In this document: piece after piece, positions 6,508 through 21,131 of the stretch
Layout of the letters: every line of letters begins with the position of its first letter
Numbering within the stretch: the first letter of the stretch is position 1
Source: a virus
Strand: one strand, 5' to 3'
Length of the DNA stretch: 22,266 nucleotides
IMG/VR virus record: IMGVR_UViG_3300025896_000200
Coordinates: 1-22,266 of that record
The notes under the pieces: generated by a model
The model's input: the letters and a program-made list of their open reading frames with translations, nothing else
Told to the model about the DNA's origin: nothing
Databases searched by the model: none
Position numbers and translations under genes: made by a program

Positions 6508-8750
6508 CCGGGTACGGCGGCGGCGGCTACGGCGGCGGGCTCTACGGGGGCTCGACCGGCGTTGCGCTGCTGCCCGCCCAGCTCGCCGGCGCCTGGGTGA
6601 CCGTAGAAGTCGCGTGGGGTGCCGACCCCGCCGGGGACCCGGACAGCTGGACGTGGGCGCCGATCACCGAGGACGTCCGGGTGGACCCCGGGCTGGCGTG
6701 GCGGTACGGCCGGGCCGATGAGTCGTCCCGCTCGAACCCGGCCACCCTGACGCTGACCCTCGACAACAGCGCCGGGGCGTACTCGCTCGGGCCCGCCTCG
6801 CCGCACCACCCGCACGTCCGGCGCGGCACCCCCGTGCGGGTGCGGGTCGCGCTCCCGGACGACGCCGGGTGGCGGACGGCGTTCCTGGGGTTCGCCGACG
6901 GTTGGTCCCCGGCATGGGCGTCTACGCGAGGCAACGTCGGGGAGGTGGAGCTGTCGGCGTCCGGGACGCTGCGGCGCCTCACGCAGGGCGCCGCCCCGGT
7001 CACCGGCCCGTACCGCCGCGCCATGTCCACCACCTCGTCGGTCGTGGCGTACTGGCCGATGGAGGACGGCGACCTGGCCACGGTGTTCGCCCCCGCGGTC
7101 GGCACGGCCGCAATGACCTACCTCGGGGAGGTCGACCTGGCGCAGGACACCACGTTCCTGTGCTCGGACCCGCTCCCGACGATGGGCGCCGGCAGCATCG
7201 ACGCGCTGGTGCCCGAGTACACGAGCAGCGCCGGACAGCATCAGGTCCGGTTCCTCGCGGCGTTCCCCGACTCGCCGTCCTGGTCGAACCGCTCGGTGAT
7301 CGCACGGATCTACACCGATGGCAGCGTGGGCCGCTTCGACCTGCAGTGGCGCACCGGGGGCGGGTTGACGCTGGTCGGGTTCAACGCGGACGGCTCGGAG
7401 AACTTCGACGGCGGTAACTGGGCGTTCGACGTGAACGGTGCGGCGGTCCGGCTGTCCGTGGAGATGCTGCAGGAGGGTTCGGACGTCGGGTGGGGGCTAC
7501 GGCGTCTCGCACAGTTCGCGACGGGCGGCAACTACGTAGACGACACGGTGGCCGGAGTGAAGGCGACCAGCCGGACGATCTCGCGAGTGACGCGGGTGGA
7601 GCTGTGCCCGGACGGGAACCTGGACGGGCTCTCGCTCGGGCACTTGGCGGTGCAGGACGTGCAGACGTCGGGGTACGAGGCGGATGCCGAGTTCAACGCC
7701 TTCAACAACGAGAGCGTCACGGCCCAGCCGACGGGCCGGCTGGTGCGGCTGTGCACTGAGAGCGACGTCGGGTTCACCCTCTACACGGGCACGACGGACG
7801 CCACAACCCCGCCGGACCGGATGGGACCGCAGCCTGCTGCCACGCTGGTGGAGCTGCTCCGCGAGTGCGAGGACGCCGAGCAGGGGCAACTGTGGGACGG
7901 CCTGGACGCGGGCCTGGCGTACACGACCCGCCGCCGCCACGAGAACGCCGACCCAACCCTGACCATCGACGCCGGGGCTGGTGAGCTCGCCCCGCCGTTC
8001 GAGCCCGTCGACGACGACCAGCGCACCCGCAACAGGGTCACAGTGAAGCGCTCGCGGGGCGCGGAGGCCACCTACGAGGACGTGGACGGCCCACTGGGGA
8101 CGGAGGCCGTGGGGGTCTACTACGACTCCGTGACGGTGAACGTCTCGTCGGACGGGGCGCTGCTCGACCTGGCGGGGTGGCTGGTGCGGCGCGGCACCGC
8201 CACCGGGTACCGCTATCCCTCCGTGACGGTCGACCTGGGCGCGTCCCCGCACCTCGCGGAAGCGGTGCTCGACCTCATCCCGGGTGCCCGGGTGGACGTG
8301 ACGAACCTCGACTCCGCCCTCGTCGGGCTCGACGGCGAGACCGTGCCCCTGGTCGTCGAGGGGATCCAGCACCGTCTCGACCCGACGCGGTGGCTGGTGA
8401 CGATGACGTGCTCGCCCTACGGGGCGTTCGAGATCGCGACCATTGCGGAGGCGTCCGGGGACGTCACGGACGAGGCGTTCCGGCTCGACGAGGACCCCAC
8501 CGTCTCCACGCTCGTGGCCGACGTCGGGGAGGGCGTGACGTCATTCCAGGTCGCCACGTCGGGCGGCCCGCTGTGGTCGACGACGGCGGACGACTACCCG
8601 CTCGACCTGGAGGTGGGCGGGGTGCGGGTGACCGTGACCGCATGCTCGGGCGGGAGCTCCCCGCAGACGTTCACGACCGCCGGGGTGCCTCGCGCGCTCA
8701 CGGCCGGCGCACTGGTGCGGCTGTACGAACCGGCCGGACTCGGACTGTAG
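6504..8750 (+). CDS. Large minor tail protein with LamG-like insert (tail hub/tip)
   Basis: 748 residues; GTG at 6504 overlaps the previous stop. The start is glycine-rich (GYGGGGYGGGLYGG), followed by a beta domain (VEVAWGADPAGDP, RSNPATLTLTLDNSAG) typical of actinophage tail-tip proteins. Around residues 177-390 there is a concanavalin/LamG-like segment beginning VVAYWPMEDGD, a fold that binds sugars. The C-terminal part (TVDLGASPHLAEAVLDLIPG; HRLDPTRWLVTMTCSPYG) looks like the end of hub proteins (Gp37/Tal type). It probably combines distal tail, hub and carbohydrate binding, so one gene may replace the missing separate Dit. Confidence 0.75.
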   Translation: MTGYGGGGYGGGLYGGSTGVALLPAQLAGAWVTVEVAWGADPAGDPDSWTWAPITEDVRVDPGLAWRYGRADESSRSNPATLTLTLDNSAGAYSLGPASPHHPHVRRGTPVRVRVALPDDAGWRTAFLGFADGWSPAWASTRGNVGEVELSASGTLRRLTQGAAPVTGPYRRAMSTTSSVVAYWPMEDGDLATVFAPAVGTAAMTYLGEVDLAQDTTFLCSDPLPTMGAGSIDALVPEYTSSAGQHQVRFLAAFPDSPSWSNRSVIARIYTDGSVGRFDLQWRTGGGLTLVGFNADGSENFDGGNWAFDVNGAAVRLSVEMLQEGSDVGWGLRRLAQFATGGNYVDDTVAGVKATSRTISRVTRVELCPDGNLDGLSLGHLAVQDVQTSGYEADAEFNAFNNESVTAQPTGRLVRLCTESDVGFTLYTGTTDATTPPDRMGPQPAATLVELLRECEDAEQGQLWDGLDAGLAYTTRRRHENADPTLTIDAGAGELAPPFEPVDDDQRTRNRVTVKRSRGAEATYEDVDGPLGTEAVGVYYDSVTVNVSSDGALLDLAGWLVRRGTATGYRYPSVTVDLGASPHLAEAVLDLIPGARVDVTNLDSALVGLDGETVPLVVEGIQHRLDPTRWLVTMTCSPYGAFEIATIAEASGDVTDEAFRLDEDPTVSTLVADVGEGVTSFQVATSGGPLWSTTADDYPLDLEVGGVRVTVTACSGGSSPQTFTTAGVPRALTAGALVRLYEPAGLGL

Positions 8751-10930: not shown

Positions 10931-10984
10931 TGCCGTCACGGCACCGCGCCGTCATGACGGCGACGGCATGGCACCGCGACGGCG
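10931..10984. repeat. Iteron array A: 16-bp spaced GACGGC repeats in inverted orientation
   Basis: Reverse copies (TGCCGTC 10931, CGCCGTC 10947) are 16 bp apart; forward copies (GACGGCA 10962, GACGGCG 10978) are also 16 bp apart, with another forward copy at 10956. The middle is a perfect 16-bp palindrome (10947-10962). It lies between the RHH gene and the ParA-like gene and abuts the ParA promoter. The same repeat at the same spacing occurs in array B (12505-12559). Likely a binding site for one DNA-binding protein, either a partition site or operator. Confidence 0.7.
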
Positions 10985-10991
10985 CAGCCGC

Positions 10992-11006
10992 TACCGTCCC
11001 GCCGTG
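10992..11006 (+). promoter_or_regulatory. Leaderless promoter of ParA-like gene
   Basis: TACCGT (10992-10997) fits the actinobacterial -10 pattern TANNNT and ends six bases before the GTG at 11004, so transcription would begin at the start codon. There is no ribosome site before this GTG. The -35 region is poor and lies inside array A, so the array's binding protein could control it. Confidence 0.45.
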
Positions 11007-11435
11007 CTCACCCTCGCCATCGGCTCGCCGAAGGGCGGCGTCGGGAAGACCGTCACGGCCGTGCACCTCGCCACCGTCGCCGCTACCGTGCTCGGGCTGC
11101 GCGTCCTCCTGGTCGACGGCGACGAGAACCGCAGCAGCCTGGACTGGGTGACCCGCGCCGGAGACGCCTCCCCTCTCGACGTCGCTCCCGGCACCCCCGA
11201 CGAGGTCCGCCGGCTACGGCAGGGGTCCGGATACGACCTCGCCGTCGTCGACCTCCCGGGCGCCCGCGAGGGCGCGTTCCAGGCCGTGCTGACCGGCGAT
11301 GGGGACGGCCCGGTCGCCGACTACCTCCTCGTCCCCACCGGGGCGGAGGTGATGGACCTGCGGCCCGTCGTGCGCGACTTCGGGGAGCGGGGAGCGCGTC
11401 ACAGGACACCTCGGAAGGGATGGTCTTTCCACTGA
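11004..11435 (+). CDS. ParA-like ATPase, 3'-truncated
   Basis: 143 residues from GTG 11004. The start is a textbook ParA: VLTLAIGSPKGGVGKT (deviant Walker A, residues 10-16), VLLVDGDENRSSLDW (A' motif) and YDLAVVDLPG (Walker B), then DYLLVPTGAEVMDLRPVV. After about 130 residues homology stops: the last ~12 codons (RTPRKGWSFH and neighbours) are the antisense of the integrase 3' end. Full ParA proteins have about 190-250 residues, so helices at the C-terminus are lost. I infer that an integrase module replaced the end of the gene. ATP binding may survive; partition function is doubtful. An upstream ATG (10968) is possible but less supported. Confidence 0.75.
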   Translation: MLTLAIGSPKGGVGKTVTAVHLATVAATVLGLRVLLVDGDENRSSLDWVTRAGDASPLDVAPGTPDEVRRLRQGSGYDLAVVDLPGAREGAFQAVLTGDGDGPVADYLLVPTGAEVMDLRPVVRDFGERGARHRTPRKGWSFH

Positions 11436-13638: not shown

Positions 13639-13954
13639 TGTGGTTCCACCGCTTCATCGAGTTCATCCGCCGGATCGTCGAGGCGGTCCGGCACGTGCGG
13701 ACCGGCGGCCGGTCCACCAGGGCCGTCGCCCGACGTCGGGCCGCTGCCCCGCCCCGCCGCTGCCAGTGCTGCGGGCAGACGGTCCACCACAGCGGGGACT
13801 ACAGGGATCACCTCGGACCGGACCGCCACCGCTACTGACCCCCCGGGGCGCACCACCGCCCCACCCCACGAGGCCACCAAGGAGGGCCCCGACCATGAGC
13901 ACGCCCGACAACACGCCCGTGCCGGACCGGACCGGACCGGCCACCAGCGGACCG
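13286..13954 (+). repeat. Strand-polar GGACCG cluster
   Basis: I count 18 copies of GGACCG on the plus strand from 13286 to 13954 and about five on the minus strand; fewer than one per strand is expected from base composition. Many are in runs (for example at 13466-13475 and 13922-13940). They cover the end of the DUF2637 gene to the start of the translocase gene, partly as Gly-Pro/Asp-Arg codons. They recall the polar 8-bp recognition repeats of TraB-type translocases, but no identity with a known site is claimed. Confidence 0.45.
13638..13838 (+). CDS. Small zinc-finger-like protein
   Basis: 66 residues; ATG shares one base with the previous stop (TGATG at 13636-13640). An amphipathic basic first half (WFHRFIEFIRRIVEAVRHVR) is followed by CQCCGQTVHHSGDYRDHLGP and an ending DRHRY, a spacing of cysteines and histidines that could hold one zinc. 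Membrane-surface or DNA binding is possible. It is part of the transfer operon between DUF2637 and the translocase; no named family recognised. Confidence 0.55.
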   Translation: MWFHRFIEFIRRIVEAVRHVRTGGRSTRAVARRRAAAPPRRCQCCGQTVHHSGDYRDHLGPDRHRY

Positions 13955-16159
13955 ACGGTCCGCCCCACACCGCTCGCGCTGGTCCGCGGCGAGCGCAAGC
14001 CGGCCCCCGTCGACCTGGACACCAACCCGGTGCCCATGTGGATGCGGGACCGGCACACCTTCACCGCTGCGACCCGGCAGCTCCGCCGGACCGTCACCCA
14101 CCGCACCCTCGCGTTCCTCGTCCAGATCCCCGGGATCCTGTGGTACCTCGGGCTCGTCTACCCCTGGCGGGGCCTGTGGCGGGTGATCGCGAAGGTCAGC
14201 GCGTTCATCTACGACAGCGACACCGCGGATCTGCGGCACGCGCACGCCGGGACGCTCGACACGCCCGAGTACGTGAAGGTGAGCCGCGAGCGGAAGGCCA
14301 ACCTGCACGCCCGCTGGCTGGTCGCCGGCCTGCTCGCCGCGCCGGTGCTGGTGCCGGTCCTCGCGTGGACGGCGCCGAGGGTCCTGTCCGCGCTGGTGGC
14401 CGTGCTCGTGTTCGCGCTGGTCGTGAAGCTCATCCCCGGGCGCGGGCCGCAGGAGGTGGCCGCCGCTGCGGTGCTCGCCGTGGTGACCTACCTCGGGCTT
14501 CCCCGCCTTCTCGCGCTCATCCCGCAGCCGTCCATGTGGTCGTTTGTGCTGGTGGGGACGCCGTTGTGGCTTGTGCTGGGCTGGCTCGGACGCCCGGCGG
14601 GCACGAAGCTGCTGAAGGACAACGGGCTGGTCGGCGGGGCGGGCGTGCCGCTCCGCGCCCCGATGGTGCGCGAGGCCCTGTGCCAGCTCGGCATCGCGGG
14701 ACTGAAGGACCCGGACAGCATCCGGATGCTGCACGACATCCACCGCCACGGCCCGGGCGTGCAGATCGACGTGGAGCTTCCCGGCGGGATCGCCGCCTCG
14801 CAGGTCGTCGAGCGCCGGGAGCGGCTCGCCGCCGCGCTGAAGCGCGAGCTTGGGTGCGTGTGGCCGACCGGCGGCCGCCGGCACGCCGCGCACCTCGCGC
14901 TGTACGTCTGCGACGAGCCGATGACGCAGCAGGTCCAGCGCCCGTGGCCGCTGGAGAAGGGCCCGGAGGTGGACATCTTCCAGCCCGTGCCGGTCGCGAC
15001 CGACCAGCGCGGGGAGTGGGTGGACCTCACGCTCGCCTACTGCGGAACGGTCATCGGGGCGCAGCCGCGCATGGGCAAGACGTTCTTCCTGCGCGAGTTG
15101 CTGCTGGTCGCGGGCCTGGACCCGCGGACGAAGGTGTACGCGCTCGACGGGAAGGGCACCGGGGACCTCGCCCCGTGCCGCCTGTTCGCGCACTTCTACT
15201 CCGTGGGCGACGACGCCGACGAGGTGGAGGGCCGCGTCCTCCCGGCGCTGCGGGAGCTGTCCGCCGAGCTGCGTCGCCGCGCGAAGGTCATCCGCGAGCT
15301 GCCGCGCGAGGAGTGCCCGGAGTCGAAGGTCACTTCCTCGCTCGCGTCGCGCCGGGAACTGGGTCTCGAGCCCATCGTCGTCGGGATCGACGAGACGCAG
15401 TCGTACTTCGCCTACGGCGCGAAATCGAACCGGAAGCACAAGGCGGTCCGCGAGGAGATCGTGGAGATCGTCACGGACCTGATGAAGCGCGGGCCGGCGC
15501 TCGGGTTCATGGTGAAGCTCGCGACTCAGAACGTCTGTGAGGAGACCATCCCGCGGCAGATCGGCACGAACGCGCAGGTCAGGGCCGCCCTGAAGCTGTT
15601 CGACCACGTGACGAACGACCAGGTGCTCGGCACCGGGGCCTACTCCCGCGGGTACGACGCCACGTCGTTCGACATCACGGACAAGGGCCTGCTGTACCTG
15701 CACGCGGACGGCGGCGTGCCGCAGATCGTCCGGTCCGTGGTCGGGCTCGACACCCTCGCCGCGGAGCGGGTCGCGGCCATCGCTCGGGCCCGCCGGGAGG
15801 CGAAGAACCGGCTCAGCGGGTACGCGCTCGGCGACGAGGCCGTGGCGGAGGCCGTGCAGGTCGACTTCCTCGCCGACGTCCGGGACGTCATGGACCACCC
15901 GCCCGTCACCGCGATGCACTTCGGCGAGCTGGTCGAGGCGCTCACCGCGCTGCGCCCGCAGACGTGGGGGCAGCTCGACGTGGACGCGCTCGGCTCGATG
16001 CTGCGGGAGGCCGGCGTCCGCACCGGGACCGTGTGGTCGAAGGCCGCCGGGAAGGGCGGCAAGGGCGTGAAGCGGGAGTGGCTGAACGTGGCCGCGACCG
16101 CCGACGCGGACCCCGGCGAAGACGACGGCGGGGCCGAGGTGGTGCCGATCCGGACCTGA
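13895..16159 (+). CDS. FtsK/TraB-like DNA translocase
   Basis: 754 residues, ATG 13895 with AAGGAGG (13879-13885). N-terminal third has several hydrophobic segments (about 75-100, 145-185, 190-225), anchoring it in the membrane. The ATPase part carries Walker A GAQPRMGKTFF at about 388-398 and Walker B PIVVGIDE at about 493-500, with RAALKLFDHVTNDQVLGTG later as in FtsK/SpoIIIE motors. The C-terminus holds a short winged-helix-like region (TWGQLDVDALGSMLREAGVR). On actinomycete plasmids this protein alone moves double-stranded DNA between cells through the hyphal wall. In this phage setting it could serve conjugation, or chromosome-like DNA segregation. Its lack of homology to terminase rules out packaging as first choice. 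Confidence 0.85.
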   Translation: MSTPDNTPVPDRTGPATSGPTVRPTPLALVRGERKPAPVDLDTNPVPMWMRDRHTFTAATRQLRRTVTHRTLAFLVQIPGILWYLGLVYPWRGLWRVIAKVSAFIYDSDTADLRHAHAGTLDTPEYVKVSRERKANLHARWLVAGLLAAPVLVPVLAWTAPRVLSALVAVLVFALVVKLIPGRGPQEVAAAAVLAVVTYLGLPRLLALIPQPSMWSFVLVGTPLWLVLGWLGRPAGTKLLKDNGLVGGAGVPLRAPMVREALCQLGIAGLKDPDSIRMLHDIHRHGPGVQIDVELPGGIAASQVVERRERLAAALKRELGCVWPTGGRRHAAHLALYVCDEPMTQQVQRPWPLEKGPEVDIFQPVPVATDQRGEWVDLTLAYCGTVIGAQPRMGKTFFLRELLLVAGLDPRTKVYALDGKGTGDLAPCRLFAHFYSVGDDADEVEGRVLPALRELSAELRRRAKVIRELPREECPESKVTSSLASRRELGLEPIVVGIDETQSYFAYGAKSNRKHKAVREEIVEIVTDLMKRGPALGFMVKLATQNVCEETIPRQIGTNAQVRAALKLFDHVTNDQVLGTGAYSRGYDATSFDITDKGLLYLHADGGVPQIVRSVVGLDTLAAERVAAIARARREAKNRLSGYALGDEAVAEAVQVDFLADVRDVMDHPPVTAMHFGELVEALTALRPQTWGQLDVDALGSMLREAGVRTGTVWSKAAGKGGKGVKREWLNVAATADADPGEDDGGAEVVPIRT

Positions 16160-18572: not shown

Positions 18573-18886
18573 TGACCGACGAGAAGCACCTGAAGACCAT
18601 GCAGGAGCTGGTCCTCGGTGGCCGCGACCCCTGGTGGTGGCCCGAGGACGAGCAGGTCGTGCCGGAGAAGCTGCGGCCCCTCCGGCGCGCGCTGGGCGCC
18701 GCCATGCTCATCGGGCACTACGCCGAGAGGCTGGGCAATCCGCAGGCGCCCGAGGTGCTGTTCCTGAAGCGGTCGATCGTGGAGGAGATCGAGTACGAGG
18801 CTTCCCGTCTCGCCGACCCCGAGGTGGCCGCGTTCCACAACGAGGTGTCGGCCGAGTGGAACGCCGAGCACGGGACGTCCGTCTGA
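18572..18886 (+). CDS. Hypothetical protein of replication operon
   Basis: 104 residues, starting at an overlap with the preceding stop and overlapping the next start (both TGATG). Contents: TMQELVLGGRDPWWWPEDEQ, then helices RALGAAMLIGHYAERLGNP and RSIVEEIEYEASRLADPEVA. Helical and acidic with no membrane segment. No recognised family; coupling to prim-pol suggests an accessory replication role. Confidence 0.6.
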   Translation: MTDEKHLKTMQELVLGGRDPWWWPEDEQVVPEKLRPLRRALGAAMLIGHYAERLGNPQAPEVLFLKRSIVEEIEYEASRLADPEVAAFHNEVSAEWNAEHGTSV

Positions 18887-19695
18887 TGGACGCCGCCGAA
18901 CTCATCCCGCAGTACATCGCTGCCGGGCTTGCCGTCCTGCCCCTGCACAGCGCCCCCGGCGGGCGGTGCACCTGCCGTAAGCCCGACTGTCGCGTCCTCC
19001 CCGACGGGGCGGTCCTGGGCTCTCCGGGCAAGCACCCGCTGACCCGGCACGGCAAGGACGACGCCACCACCGACCTTGGCGTCATCGCCGAATGGGCCGC
19101 CCGGTTCCCGGGCTGCAACTGGGGCGGACGTCCTCCCGTCGGCGCGATCATCCTCGACGTCGACCCGCGCAACGGCGGCGCGACCACCCTCGTCGCGCTG
19201 CAGGACCAGCACGGGCGGCTGCCGCGCACCCTCACCGCGCGCACCGGCTCCGGCGGATTCCACATCTGGCTGTCCTACGACGGCCCCACCCGCGGCAAGC
19301 TCGGAGAGGGCATCGACATCAAGTCGAACTCCGGATACGTCGTGCTGCCGCCCAGCCTGCACGCCTCGGGTGGCCGCTACGAATGGATCAGTGAGCGGCC
19401 CGCCGCGTACGCCCCGCAGTGGGTGCGCGACCTCCTGAACCCGCCCCGGCGCGAGTTCACCGGCACGCCCAGCGGGGACATCGCGCCCCTCGTCCGGTTC
19501 GTTACCGAGTCCGTCGAGGGCGAACGCAACCGCAGGTTGTTCTGGGCGACCTGCCGGGCGGCGGAGCAGGGGGTCGACCCCGCTCCGCTCATCGCGGCCG
19601 CCGAGTCCATCGGCGTCCCCGCCCACGAGGCCCGCGCGACCGCGCGCAGCGCCATGAACACCGCCGGCTCTACCCCCGCCGGAAGGGCCAGCTGA
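18886..19695 (+). CDS. Bifunctional DNA primase/polymerase (prim-pol)
   Basis: 269 residues. Prim-pol signature: CTCRKPDC with a later H50 (probable zinc site, C28, C30, C35), KHPLTRHGKDDATTD, NWGGRPPVGAIILDVDPRNG with metal-binding D91 and D93, and GSGGFHIWLSYDGPT with H126, then SNSGYVVLPPSLHASGGRYEW. It makes primers and short DNA from dNTPs at the element's origin. The C-terminal ~80 residues form helices (NRRLFWATCRAAEQGVDPAP) as in primase C-terminal domains. In pSAM2-type elements prim-pol acts with the replication initiator; here it pairs with the ATPase encoded next. Confidence 0.88.
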   Translation: MDAAELIPQYIAAGLAVLPLHSAPGGRCTCRKPDCRVLPDGAVLGSPGKHPLTRHGKDDATTDLGVIAEWAARFPGCNWGGRPPVGAIILDVDPRNGGATTLVALQDQHGRLPRTLTARTGSGGFHIWLSYDGPTRGKLGEGIDIKSNSGYVVLPPSLHASGGRYEWISERPAAYAPQWVRDLLNPPRREFTGTPSGDIAPLVRFVTESVEGERNRRLFWATCRAAEQGVDPAPLIAAAESIGVPAHEARATARSAMNTAGSTPAGRAS

Positions 19696-19696
19696 C

Positions 19697-20890
19697 ATGA
19701 CCACTGCACGCACCCCCCGACGCGAGCACCCCTTCACGGTCTTCGACGGCGTCCCCGCGCAGGAACCGGCCGTCGACGACACCGACGCGATCCCCCACCG
19801 GAAACTCCTCGTGCACCGGGCCTCCCAGGTCCCGAAGAGGCGCGCGGTGTGGCTCTGGTCCACCGACGGCATCGGGCGCATCCCCTGCGGGGAGGTCACC
19901 ATCGCCGCCGGCCGCGGCAACGTCGGCAAGTCCCCGTTCGCGCTGTGGCTCTGCGCCCGCCTCACCCGCGGCGACCTCACCGGCCACTTCGACGGCACCC
20001 CCGTGCGCGCCGCGGTCTACGCCTCCGAGGACAGCCACAACCACACCACCGTCCCCCGCCTGGAGGCGGCCGGTGCGGACCTGGACATGGTGGACCTGAT
20101 CGTAGGCACCACCGCGCTGACCGGCGAGGAGGAGTCCCTCCTGTGGTACCGGGACCTCGATCTGATCGAGGAGCACCTCCAGGAGACCGGGGCGAAGTTC
20201 CTCGTGATCGACCCGCTGCACGACGTCTACAAGAGCGGCGCCGACTCCAACAAGACCGACGACGTCCGGAACGGCATCCGCCCGCTCGTGCAGATGGCGC
20301 ACCGGCTCAACGTGACCATCCTTGGGATCGCCCACTTCAACAAGGCGAAGACCACCGACGTGGGCTCGCTGCTGTCCGGCTCCCACGGGCTCCGCGACAT
20401 CGTCCGGGCCGTGCTGGTGTTCGTCGAGACCGAGGACGGCCAGAAGGTGCTGGGCCAGGACAAGAACAACCTCGGCCGCGCCGGGGCGGACGTCCCCCGC
20501 ATCACCTACGACATGGACATCGTCCCGGTGGAGATCGACGGCATCACCGACGACTTCCCCGTCTTCAACCCCACCGGCACCACGGAAGCCACCATCGCGG
20601 ACATCGTCGGCGGCAAGGCCGACGCGGCGGACCTGCCGATCCCGCAGACCGTGGAGTGGATGTACGACGCGCTGGTGAAGGCGTCGCCGTACCCGATGTC
20701 CGTCGCCGTGCTGGAGGCGGAGGCCAACCGCCGCGGGCTGAAGTGGGACACCGTCCGACGGCAGGCGAAGAGGTCCACGCTGATGGAGCGGCAGAAGCGG
20801 GGCGGCACCGAGCACGGCGGGTGGGAGTGGCGGCTCACCGACGCAGGCAAGGCCCGCAGCAAGGCCCGCGACGAGGACGGCGACGACTGA
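19697..20890 (+). CDS. RepA-like RecA-fold ATPase / helicase
   Basis: 397 residues, ATG one base after the previous stop (with the TGACATG layout). It carries Walker A AAGRGNVGKSPFALW (about 69-83), Walker B KFLVIDPLHDVY (about 170-180) and the sensor region VTILGIAHFNKAKTTDVGSL, as in RepA/AAA_25 hexameric helicases. C-terminal ~90 residues hold a winged-helix-like segment (SVAVLEAEANRRGLKWDTVR, then RQKRGG). It would unwind or remodel origin DNA for the prim-pol. The large iteron palindrome starts eight bases after its stop, as expected for an initiator acting near its own gene. Confidence 0.85.
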   Translation: MTTARTPRREHPFTVFDGVPAQEPAVDDTDAIPHRKLLVHRASQVPKRRAVWLWSTDGIGRIPCGEVTIAAGRGNVGKSPFALWLCARLTRGDLTGHFDGTPVRAAVYASEDSHNHTTVPRLEAAGADLDMVDLIVGTTALTGEEESLLWYRDLDLIEEHLQETGAKFLVIDPLHDVYKSGADSNKTDDVRNGIRPLVQMAHRLNVTILGIAHFNKAKTTDVGSLLSGSHGLRDIVRAVLVFVETEDGQKVLGQDKNNLGRAGADVPRITYDMDIVPVEIDGITDDFPVFNPTGTTEATIADIVGGKADAADLPIPQTVEWMYDALVKASPYPMSVAVLEAEANRRGLKWDTVRRQAKRSTLMERQKRGGTEHGGWEWRLTDAGKARSKARDEDGDD

Positions 20891-20897
20891 TGACTGG

Positions 20898-21131
20898 CAA
20901 GACGGACAAGGCGGACGGCATGTCCTCTCGCACGCGCGGGGGAGCCCGGTATCCGCCTTGTCCGTCTTGGTATCTACCTGCGGAAACACCCATCCGCCTT
21001 GCATCCGCCTTGGTCCGTCTTAGCGTCCGCCTTGGCTCAACCCCAATGCAAGACGGAAGGCAAGGCGGAGCAAGGCGGAGCCAAGACGGAACCCTGTTTC
21101 CGCAGGTCAAGGCCAAGACGGACAAGGCGGA
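20898..21131. repeat. Iteron palindrome, probable replication origin
   Basis: Fourteen copies of the 9-mer CAAGRCGGA or its reverse. Forward: 20898, 20907, 21049, 21061, 21071, 21082, 21114, 21123. Reverse: 20952, 20961, 20993, 21004, 21014 (one mismatch), 21026. From 20952 to 21131 (180 bp) they are placed with exact mirror symmetry about 21041.5: two adjoining units, six bases, ACCTGCGGAAACA (20976-20988), four bases, four units with spacers 2/1/3, then 14 central bases and the same in reverse (TGTTTCCGCAGGT 21095-21107). An extra unit pair stands at 20898-20915. Location after the helicase gene supports an origin or initiator site. No other gene in the 295-bp gap is convincing. Confidence 0.75.

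Follow-up and report, generated by a model that had tools for sequence, protein, structure and literature searches.

The mirrored array of short repeats that directly follows an ATPase gene in the window, by which we mean the whole virus contig of 22,266 bases (about 72% G+C in a record-level check), is very probably the replication origin of a phage-plasmid-like element and would be read by the adjacent ATPase, a reading to which we assign, from sequence comparison, a probability of about 0.85. The original prediction had proposed an origin next to this gene, on which initiators would assemble bidirectionally or as a pair of hexamers, and the comparison of relatives favours that proposal. As far as related sequences allow, the comparison establishes the layout of the array, its linkage to the ATPase, the conservation of units over spacers and a correlation between the unit core and the predicted recognition helix of the ATPase. 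The features concerned are as follows.

18886..19695, + strand: Prim-Pol (PF09250), predicted replicon primase-polymerase; start codon inferred from the frame
19697..20890, + strand: AAA_25 (RecA-fold) ATPase, predicted helicase-initiator (PF13481 match, PHROG matches, predicted structure)
20898..20915, + strand: extra unit pair without mirror partner, 8 bp past the ATPase stop
20952..21131, no strand: mirrored iteron array, predicted origin core, 12 units CAAGRCGGA, six per strand; centre 21041.5; layout recurs in relatives
20952, 20961, 20993, 21004, 21014, 21026, - strand: starts of the left six units
20952..20969, - strand: left outer unit pair, 9-bp step
20976..20988, + strand: left box ACCTGCGGAAACA, 13 bp; ACCTGC core common to Streptomyces plasmids and the Pseudonocardia phage-plasmid
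20993..21034, - strand: left inner four units, spacers 2/1/3
21035..21048, no strand: centre without units, 14 bp
21049, 21061, 21071, 21082, 21114, 21123, + strand: starts of the right six units
21049..21090, + strand: right inner four units, spacers 3/1/2
21095..21107, - strand: right box TGTTTCCGCAGGT, left box in inverted orientation
21114..21131, + strand: right outer unit pair, 9-bp step

All fourteen CAAGRCGGA units that had been described are found at their coordinates, thirteen of them exact and one, at 21014-21022, reading TAAGACGGA; over the whole 22 kb window the same pattern with at most one mismatch occurs 32 times against 11.4 expected by chance. The units are direct repeats within each arm and the arms are inverted relative to each other. 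The exact mirror about 21041.5 holds for 12 of the 14 units, with each mirrored pair summing to 42083, the 2/1/3 spacers are identical in each half, the matching 13-bp elements are complementary at 13/13 positions, and the extra forward pair left of the array is indeed present, its mirror partner being absent. The 14-bp centre, CTCAACCCCAATG(C), is not distinctly AT-rich.

The symmetry is not a property of the DNA as a whole. Between the arms the units are complementary at 50/54 positions and the 13-bp element throughout, and the remaining positions match at only 4/23, which is the chance level, so that the symmetry resides in the units, their spacing and one box. In two sets of 20,000 trials, six pairs never shared one centre: random placement gave at most 4 and shuffling of the observed gaps at most 5. 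The palindrome score peaks window-wide at 21041.5 (z 7.6). As judged from the sequence, mirrored units combined with chance-level spacers are the signature expected for repeated protein sites, and not for a hairpin or a recent inverted duplication.

Prim-Pol gene, ATPase gene and array are directly consecutive, and the array follows the ATPase gene as originally stated. The ATPase has PHROG matches to DNA polymerase/primase, primase/helicase and DnaB-like helicase families, and the structure predicted for it (mean pLDDT 80) shows a RecA fold whose nearest PDB chains are RadA, KaiC, RecA/RAD51 and DnaB. In the model the C-terminus forms a helix-helix-helix-strand-strand arrangement (residues 317-380), which is predicted to be a winged helix; the predicted recognition helix spans about residues 350-359, and its first residue, W350, is the tryptophan of GLKWDTVRRQ.

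We have searched for relatives of the ATPase with alignment queries, single-sequence protein scans of the viral and genome contigs having given none, and obtained 32 loci in viral contigs and 80 in genome contigs. The nearest relatives by protein are in Streptomyces plasmids, C. glutamicum pCG2 and mycobacterium and microbacterium phages, and the genome-contig loci extend to Pseudomonadota, Chloroflexota, Acidobacteriota and Planctomycetota. Searches at the DNA level recovered no relative of either the array or the entire window from phage records, nor of the window's Prim-Pol gene from plasmid records, and the exact CAAGRCGGACAAGRCGGA pattern detects in viral contigs only short one-direction tandem repeats and scattered matches, with no mirrored array.

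After dereplication by clustering at 60% identity, 39 of the 60 clusters have the strongest inverted repeat of their locus no further than 300 bp from the ATPase stop, where 7.7% would be expected (p 6e-29); the figure is 34/60 when arms are required to span at least 30 bp, a cut-off that removes short terminator hairpins. A bidirectional exact 7-mer statistic gives a weaker result (near beats far in 56 of 113 loci and loses in 41), as the units differ from one another at one or two bases and GC-rich words of the background disturb the count. About a third of the relatives, for example the Mycobacterium Rando14 group, are without a clear array near the gene. At the locus of the S. chartreusis plasmid (L058) the strongest inverted repeat 3' of the ATPase was rejected as the array, being a short near-perfect terminator-like hairpin; the true array lies at 7143-7339, about 4.7 kb from the ATPase gene. 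Since it retains the units and boxes of its close homologue at this distance, the array is linked to the protein rather than to a position.

Among distant relatives (ATPase 24–38% identical) the unit letters differ and the layout stays. In L062, whose ATPase is 34% identical, ten CAAGRGRG units and an inverted GACGGTTAG box form an exact mirror about 4154.5. The Streptomyces group has TGACGNGATTG units; its boxes (ACCTGCGG / C-GCAGGT) and outer units are in mirror register, and only some of the inner units mirror one another exactly. The distance between the box and the adjacent outer unit, centre to centre, is 15.5 bp in L057, L058, L064, L065 and L077, and 14.5 bp in the window when the unit is counted as 9 bp. 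Conservation of unit positions over intervening bases had been named in advance as a sign of protein binding, and the column conservation of nine aligned Streptomyces-type loci amounts to 0.914 for units and 0.965 for boxes against 0.802 for spacers (p 5e-10), the unit mask having been drawn from the consensus of those same loci, which favours the result somewhat. The opposite outcome, a loss of unit spacing in relatives, is not what we see, as box and outer-unit spacing is kept despite the changed units. In the array behind the ATPase stop at one locus (L126) the units of both arms have changed together relative to sister loci, from ...GATTG to ...ACATG, which suggests concerted evolution.

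The letters of the units appear to follow the protein. AAGR-rich arrays occur in 8/8 clusters with a tryptophan at the predicted recognition-helix position and in 8/34 clusters without it (Fisher p 1e-4), a correlational result obtained at a threshold of our choosing and with related proteins that are not fully independent. The W-type helices (SWATVRR, AWRTMHR, WDTVRR) and their AAGR pairing span Actinomycetota and Pseudomonadota; as the figures imply, AAGR units are also present in clusters without W. This correlation supports the view that the ATPase's own winged helix binds the units.

The inverted box behaves differently. An inward-pointing ACCTGC...GCAGGT pair near the ATPase stop was found at 20 of 118 loci, mostly of Streptomyces, two of them being oppositely arranged, and the box is not universal, being limited to the window, the Streptomyces group and the circular plasmid NZ_CP053567 (27,393 bp; Pseudonocardia broussonetiae; locus L094). 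At this last locus (22436-24348) the AAA_25 ATPase is replaced by a D5_N/DUF5906 helicase beside a Prim-Pol of the same family as the window's; the mirrored plan and the ACCTGC...GCAGGT pair (24139-24285) persist, and the units are new, of the GGCCCCGCC type. As the box is kept with another helicase, it is associated with something other than the helicase, and we infer from these sequences a site for Prim-Pol, for a host factor or for priming.

The synteny with this plasmid also bears on the affiliation of the window, which encodes head-tail, tail, tape-measure and tail-tip genes, Prim-Pol and the AAA_25 ATPase, a short ParA-like ORF, a tyrosine recombinase, an FtsK/SpoIIIE-like translocase, HTH proteins and an HNH nuclease. 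Two further features need to be located.

10968-11435: ParA-like ORF, 155 aa only
13640-16159: FtsK-like translocase

Most of the Pfam match of the ParA-like ORF is limited to its N-terminal part, and the ORF may be short or frameshifted. The FtsK-like protein is 45% identical to its homologue on NZ_CP053567, and the two elements have in common the order capsid/tail, ParA, recombinase, DUF2637 protein, FtsK, Prim-Pol, helicase, followed on the plasmid by terminase. Because of this synteny, the window is most likely a phage-plasmid fragment from a Pseudonocardia-like actinomycete. The plasmid (1-27393), syntenic with window positions 1-22266, bears capsid, tail and terminase genes, and the two are probably members of an actinobacterial phage-plasmid family that has an FtsK-like translocase.

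In the mechanism that we propose, the AAA_25 ATPase would act as a helicase-initiator that loads itself, each CAAGRCGGA unit being read by its C-terminal winged helix; its molecules would bind the two arms in opposite orientations. Two facing assemblies, perhaps two hexamers, would form around the 14-bp centre and melt the DNA, giving two outgoing forks, and Prim-Pol, encoded just before the ATPase, would make the primers; the inverted ACCTGCGG-type box in each arm would be a separate site, conserved even with another helicase family. Unit binding, helicase activity, hexamers, bidirectionality and priming are thus what we infer, and a bidirectional start from two facing assemblies is plausible from the symmetry and by analogy with known systems. 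Several observations count against an origin: the array (39% AT versus 28% for the record) has no clear AT-rich stretch and a mixed centre, GC-skew extrema lie near the array in only two of four circular relatives (L058 and pCG2, not L057 or L094), where they are maxima, and a clear array near the gene is missing in the third of relatives mentioned above. GC skew was rejected as an origin locator, being unreliable among these four. On the side of the proposed reading, no DnaA-box-like site (TTNTCCACA, one mismatch allowed) is present within the array.

Other functions can be envisaged for an array of this kind. A partition site (centromere) for the element's ParA system would also consist of multiple short repeats, the window does carry a ParA-like ORF, and the array of L058 lies about 1.3 kb after a parA gene; we nevertheless consider this very unlikely, since in the window about 9.5 kb separate the array from ParA and it directly follows the ATPase gene, arrays track the ATPase stop across the 60 non-redundant relatives, pCG2 has an array and no annotated ParA, and the unit core is correlated with the winged helix of the ATPase. 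The array might also be an operator with no role as an origin, through which the ATPase or a different regulator would act on the small genes downstream; its position between two genes of the same direction would suit this, and plasmids commonly have autoregulatory iterons. This is no more probable than a centromere, as in the Microbacterium-type phages the array is inside the 3' coding end of the helicase gene, the exact 180 bp mirror with its boxes exceeds what an operator needs, and the matching arrangement in pWTY27 and SaPI/PICI belongs to the replicon.

A clt-like transfer site recognised by the FtsK-like translocase seems more improbable still. Streptomyces TraB-type translocases do bind arrays of 7–9 bp repeats (PMC3583192), but in the systems described in that account clt adjoins the translocase gene; here the gene is almost 5 kb away, and L057 and pCG2, annotated without FtsK, keep the array beside the ATPase. 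The original prediction had also considered a hairpin end or a recombination site, and a telomere, an attachment site or a structure folding as single strands would agree with the strong predicted single-strand fold of the array (-88 kcal/mol, z -10) and with the tyrosine recombinase gene on the window. These alternatives fared worst and we give them hardly any credence: with 4/23 spacer positions complementary, pairing as such is not maintained, the inner units are off register in many relatives, the relatives include no linear form but circular plasmids, and about 8.5 kb lie between the array and the integrase, the array following the ATPase instead.

Classical iteron origins, of the P1, RK2 and pSC101 type, have short units bound by a plasmid-encoded winged-helix initiator, and are organised as tandem direct repeats with DnaA boxes, an AT-rich element and loading of the host DnaB. 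The window resembles them in its short repeated units and in an element-encoded initiator that is predicted to be a winged-helix protein; it differs in that its arms are inverted, a DnaA box was not found in the array and the initiator itself is predicted to be a helicase. The RSF1010 oriV is served by an element-encoded RecA-fold hexameric helicase (RepA) and by its own primase (RepB'), with primase start sites on both strands, and it uses direct iterons and a separate iteron-binding protein (RepC). A helicase of this fold and an own primase are likewise predicted for the window, whereas in the window the DNA-binding domain is predicted to be part of the helicase itself.

The SaPI/PICI origins and pWTY27 come closest among known kinds. 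The SaPI origin is directly downstream of rep, Rep binding the iterons through its C-terminal domain, apparently as two hexamers, and SCCmec Cch2 has an origin of similar type (PMC7581432); in PICI origins an AT-rich region is always flanked by two sets of iterons, a plan said to be common to no other known replicon (PMC6092414). The window and most relatives likewise have the predicted origin directly 3' of the helicase-initiator gene, and the window has two mirrored sets of six, with a primase gene alongside as in those islands (PMC6092414, PMC7581432). Where the C-terminal domain of the SaPI/PICI helicase reads the iterons, the window's would have a predicted C-terminal winged helix that correlates with the unit core. 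Differences are also evident, in that Rep is DUF927 or D5/Primase_Cterm and the window's helicase is AAA_25/RecA-fold (D5_N occurring only in the syntenic L094), the window's units mirror one another exactly and are accompanied by an inverted ACCTGC box, the sets are not separated by a marked AT-rich segment, and the element is phage-plasmid-like rather than an island.

According to the excerpts of its description, the repA-repB-iteron locus of the Streptomyces plasmid pWTY27 combines RepA and a prim-pol gene with iterons of both orientations; an inverted iteron array of about 105 bp is footprinted by RepA, and replication is bidirectional (PMC3583192). The window agrees with it in having, beside its prim-pol gene, an array of short iterons that is long and inverted; the RepA of pWTY27 is described as a 522-aa hypothetical protein, and those excerpts mention no inverted box, unlike what is found in the window. 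Mycobacteriophage RepA origins so far described have no such repeats (PMC7157519). The layout had originally been called unusual, which is justified with respect to direct-repeat iteron origins; it is not unique, as the architecture is shared among relatives and similar to that of SaPI/PICI origins and pWTY27. In the open-licence literature we found no experiment on this element or any AAA_25 relative, and no paper on mirrored iterons for AAA_25 helicases. The category of origin is already known, and this variant and its breadth appear to be new.

Taking these results together, we lean, with some reserve, towards a joint claim: that mirrored iterons read directly by the winged helix of a RecA-fold AAA_25 helicase are where replication starts in a widespread class of replicons, comprising plasmids, phages and elements of the chromosome in Actinomycetota, Pseudomonadota, Chloroflexota and others, that the PICI plan is matched in unrelated helicases, that winged helix and unit coevolve under a readable code, and that the ACCTGC box is a helicase-independent origin element kept on helicase replacement. 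An odd palindrome would thereby become a recognisable origin signature for many poorly studied elements, among them C. glutamicum pCG2, Streptomyces plasmids, Microbacterium phages and actinobacterial phage-plasmids. The comparison suggests that the plan called unique to PICIs (PMC6092414) also occurs with an unrelated helicase; if so, it would have arisen by convergence or by exchange among elements, and one could test whether self-loading helicases follow a common plan. The pairing of recognition helix and unit likewise offers a specificity that can be tested directly and swapped, as well as minimal replicons on which vectors for high-GC actinomycetes could be based.

Two minor observations concern the surroundings of the arrays. 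The extra pair and the left outer pair (20898-20915 and 20952-20969) constitute a perfect 18-bp inverted repeat, 36 bp apart and without a T run, possibly a copy-control or transcript structure. In Microbacterium-type phages (L061, L070, L074, L075, L078, L081 and L093) the in-gene array encodes a low-complexity TPVTPVT-like linker, which joins the winged helix to a CxxC...HxxC tail.
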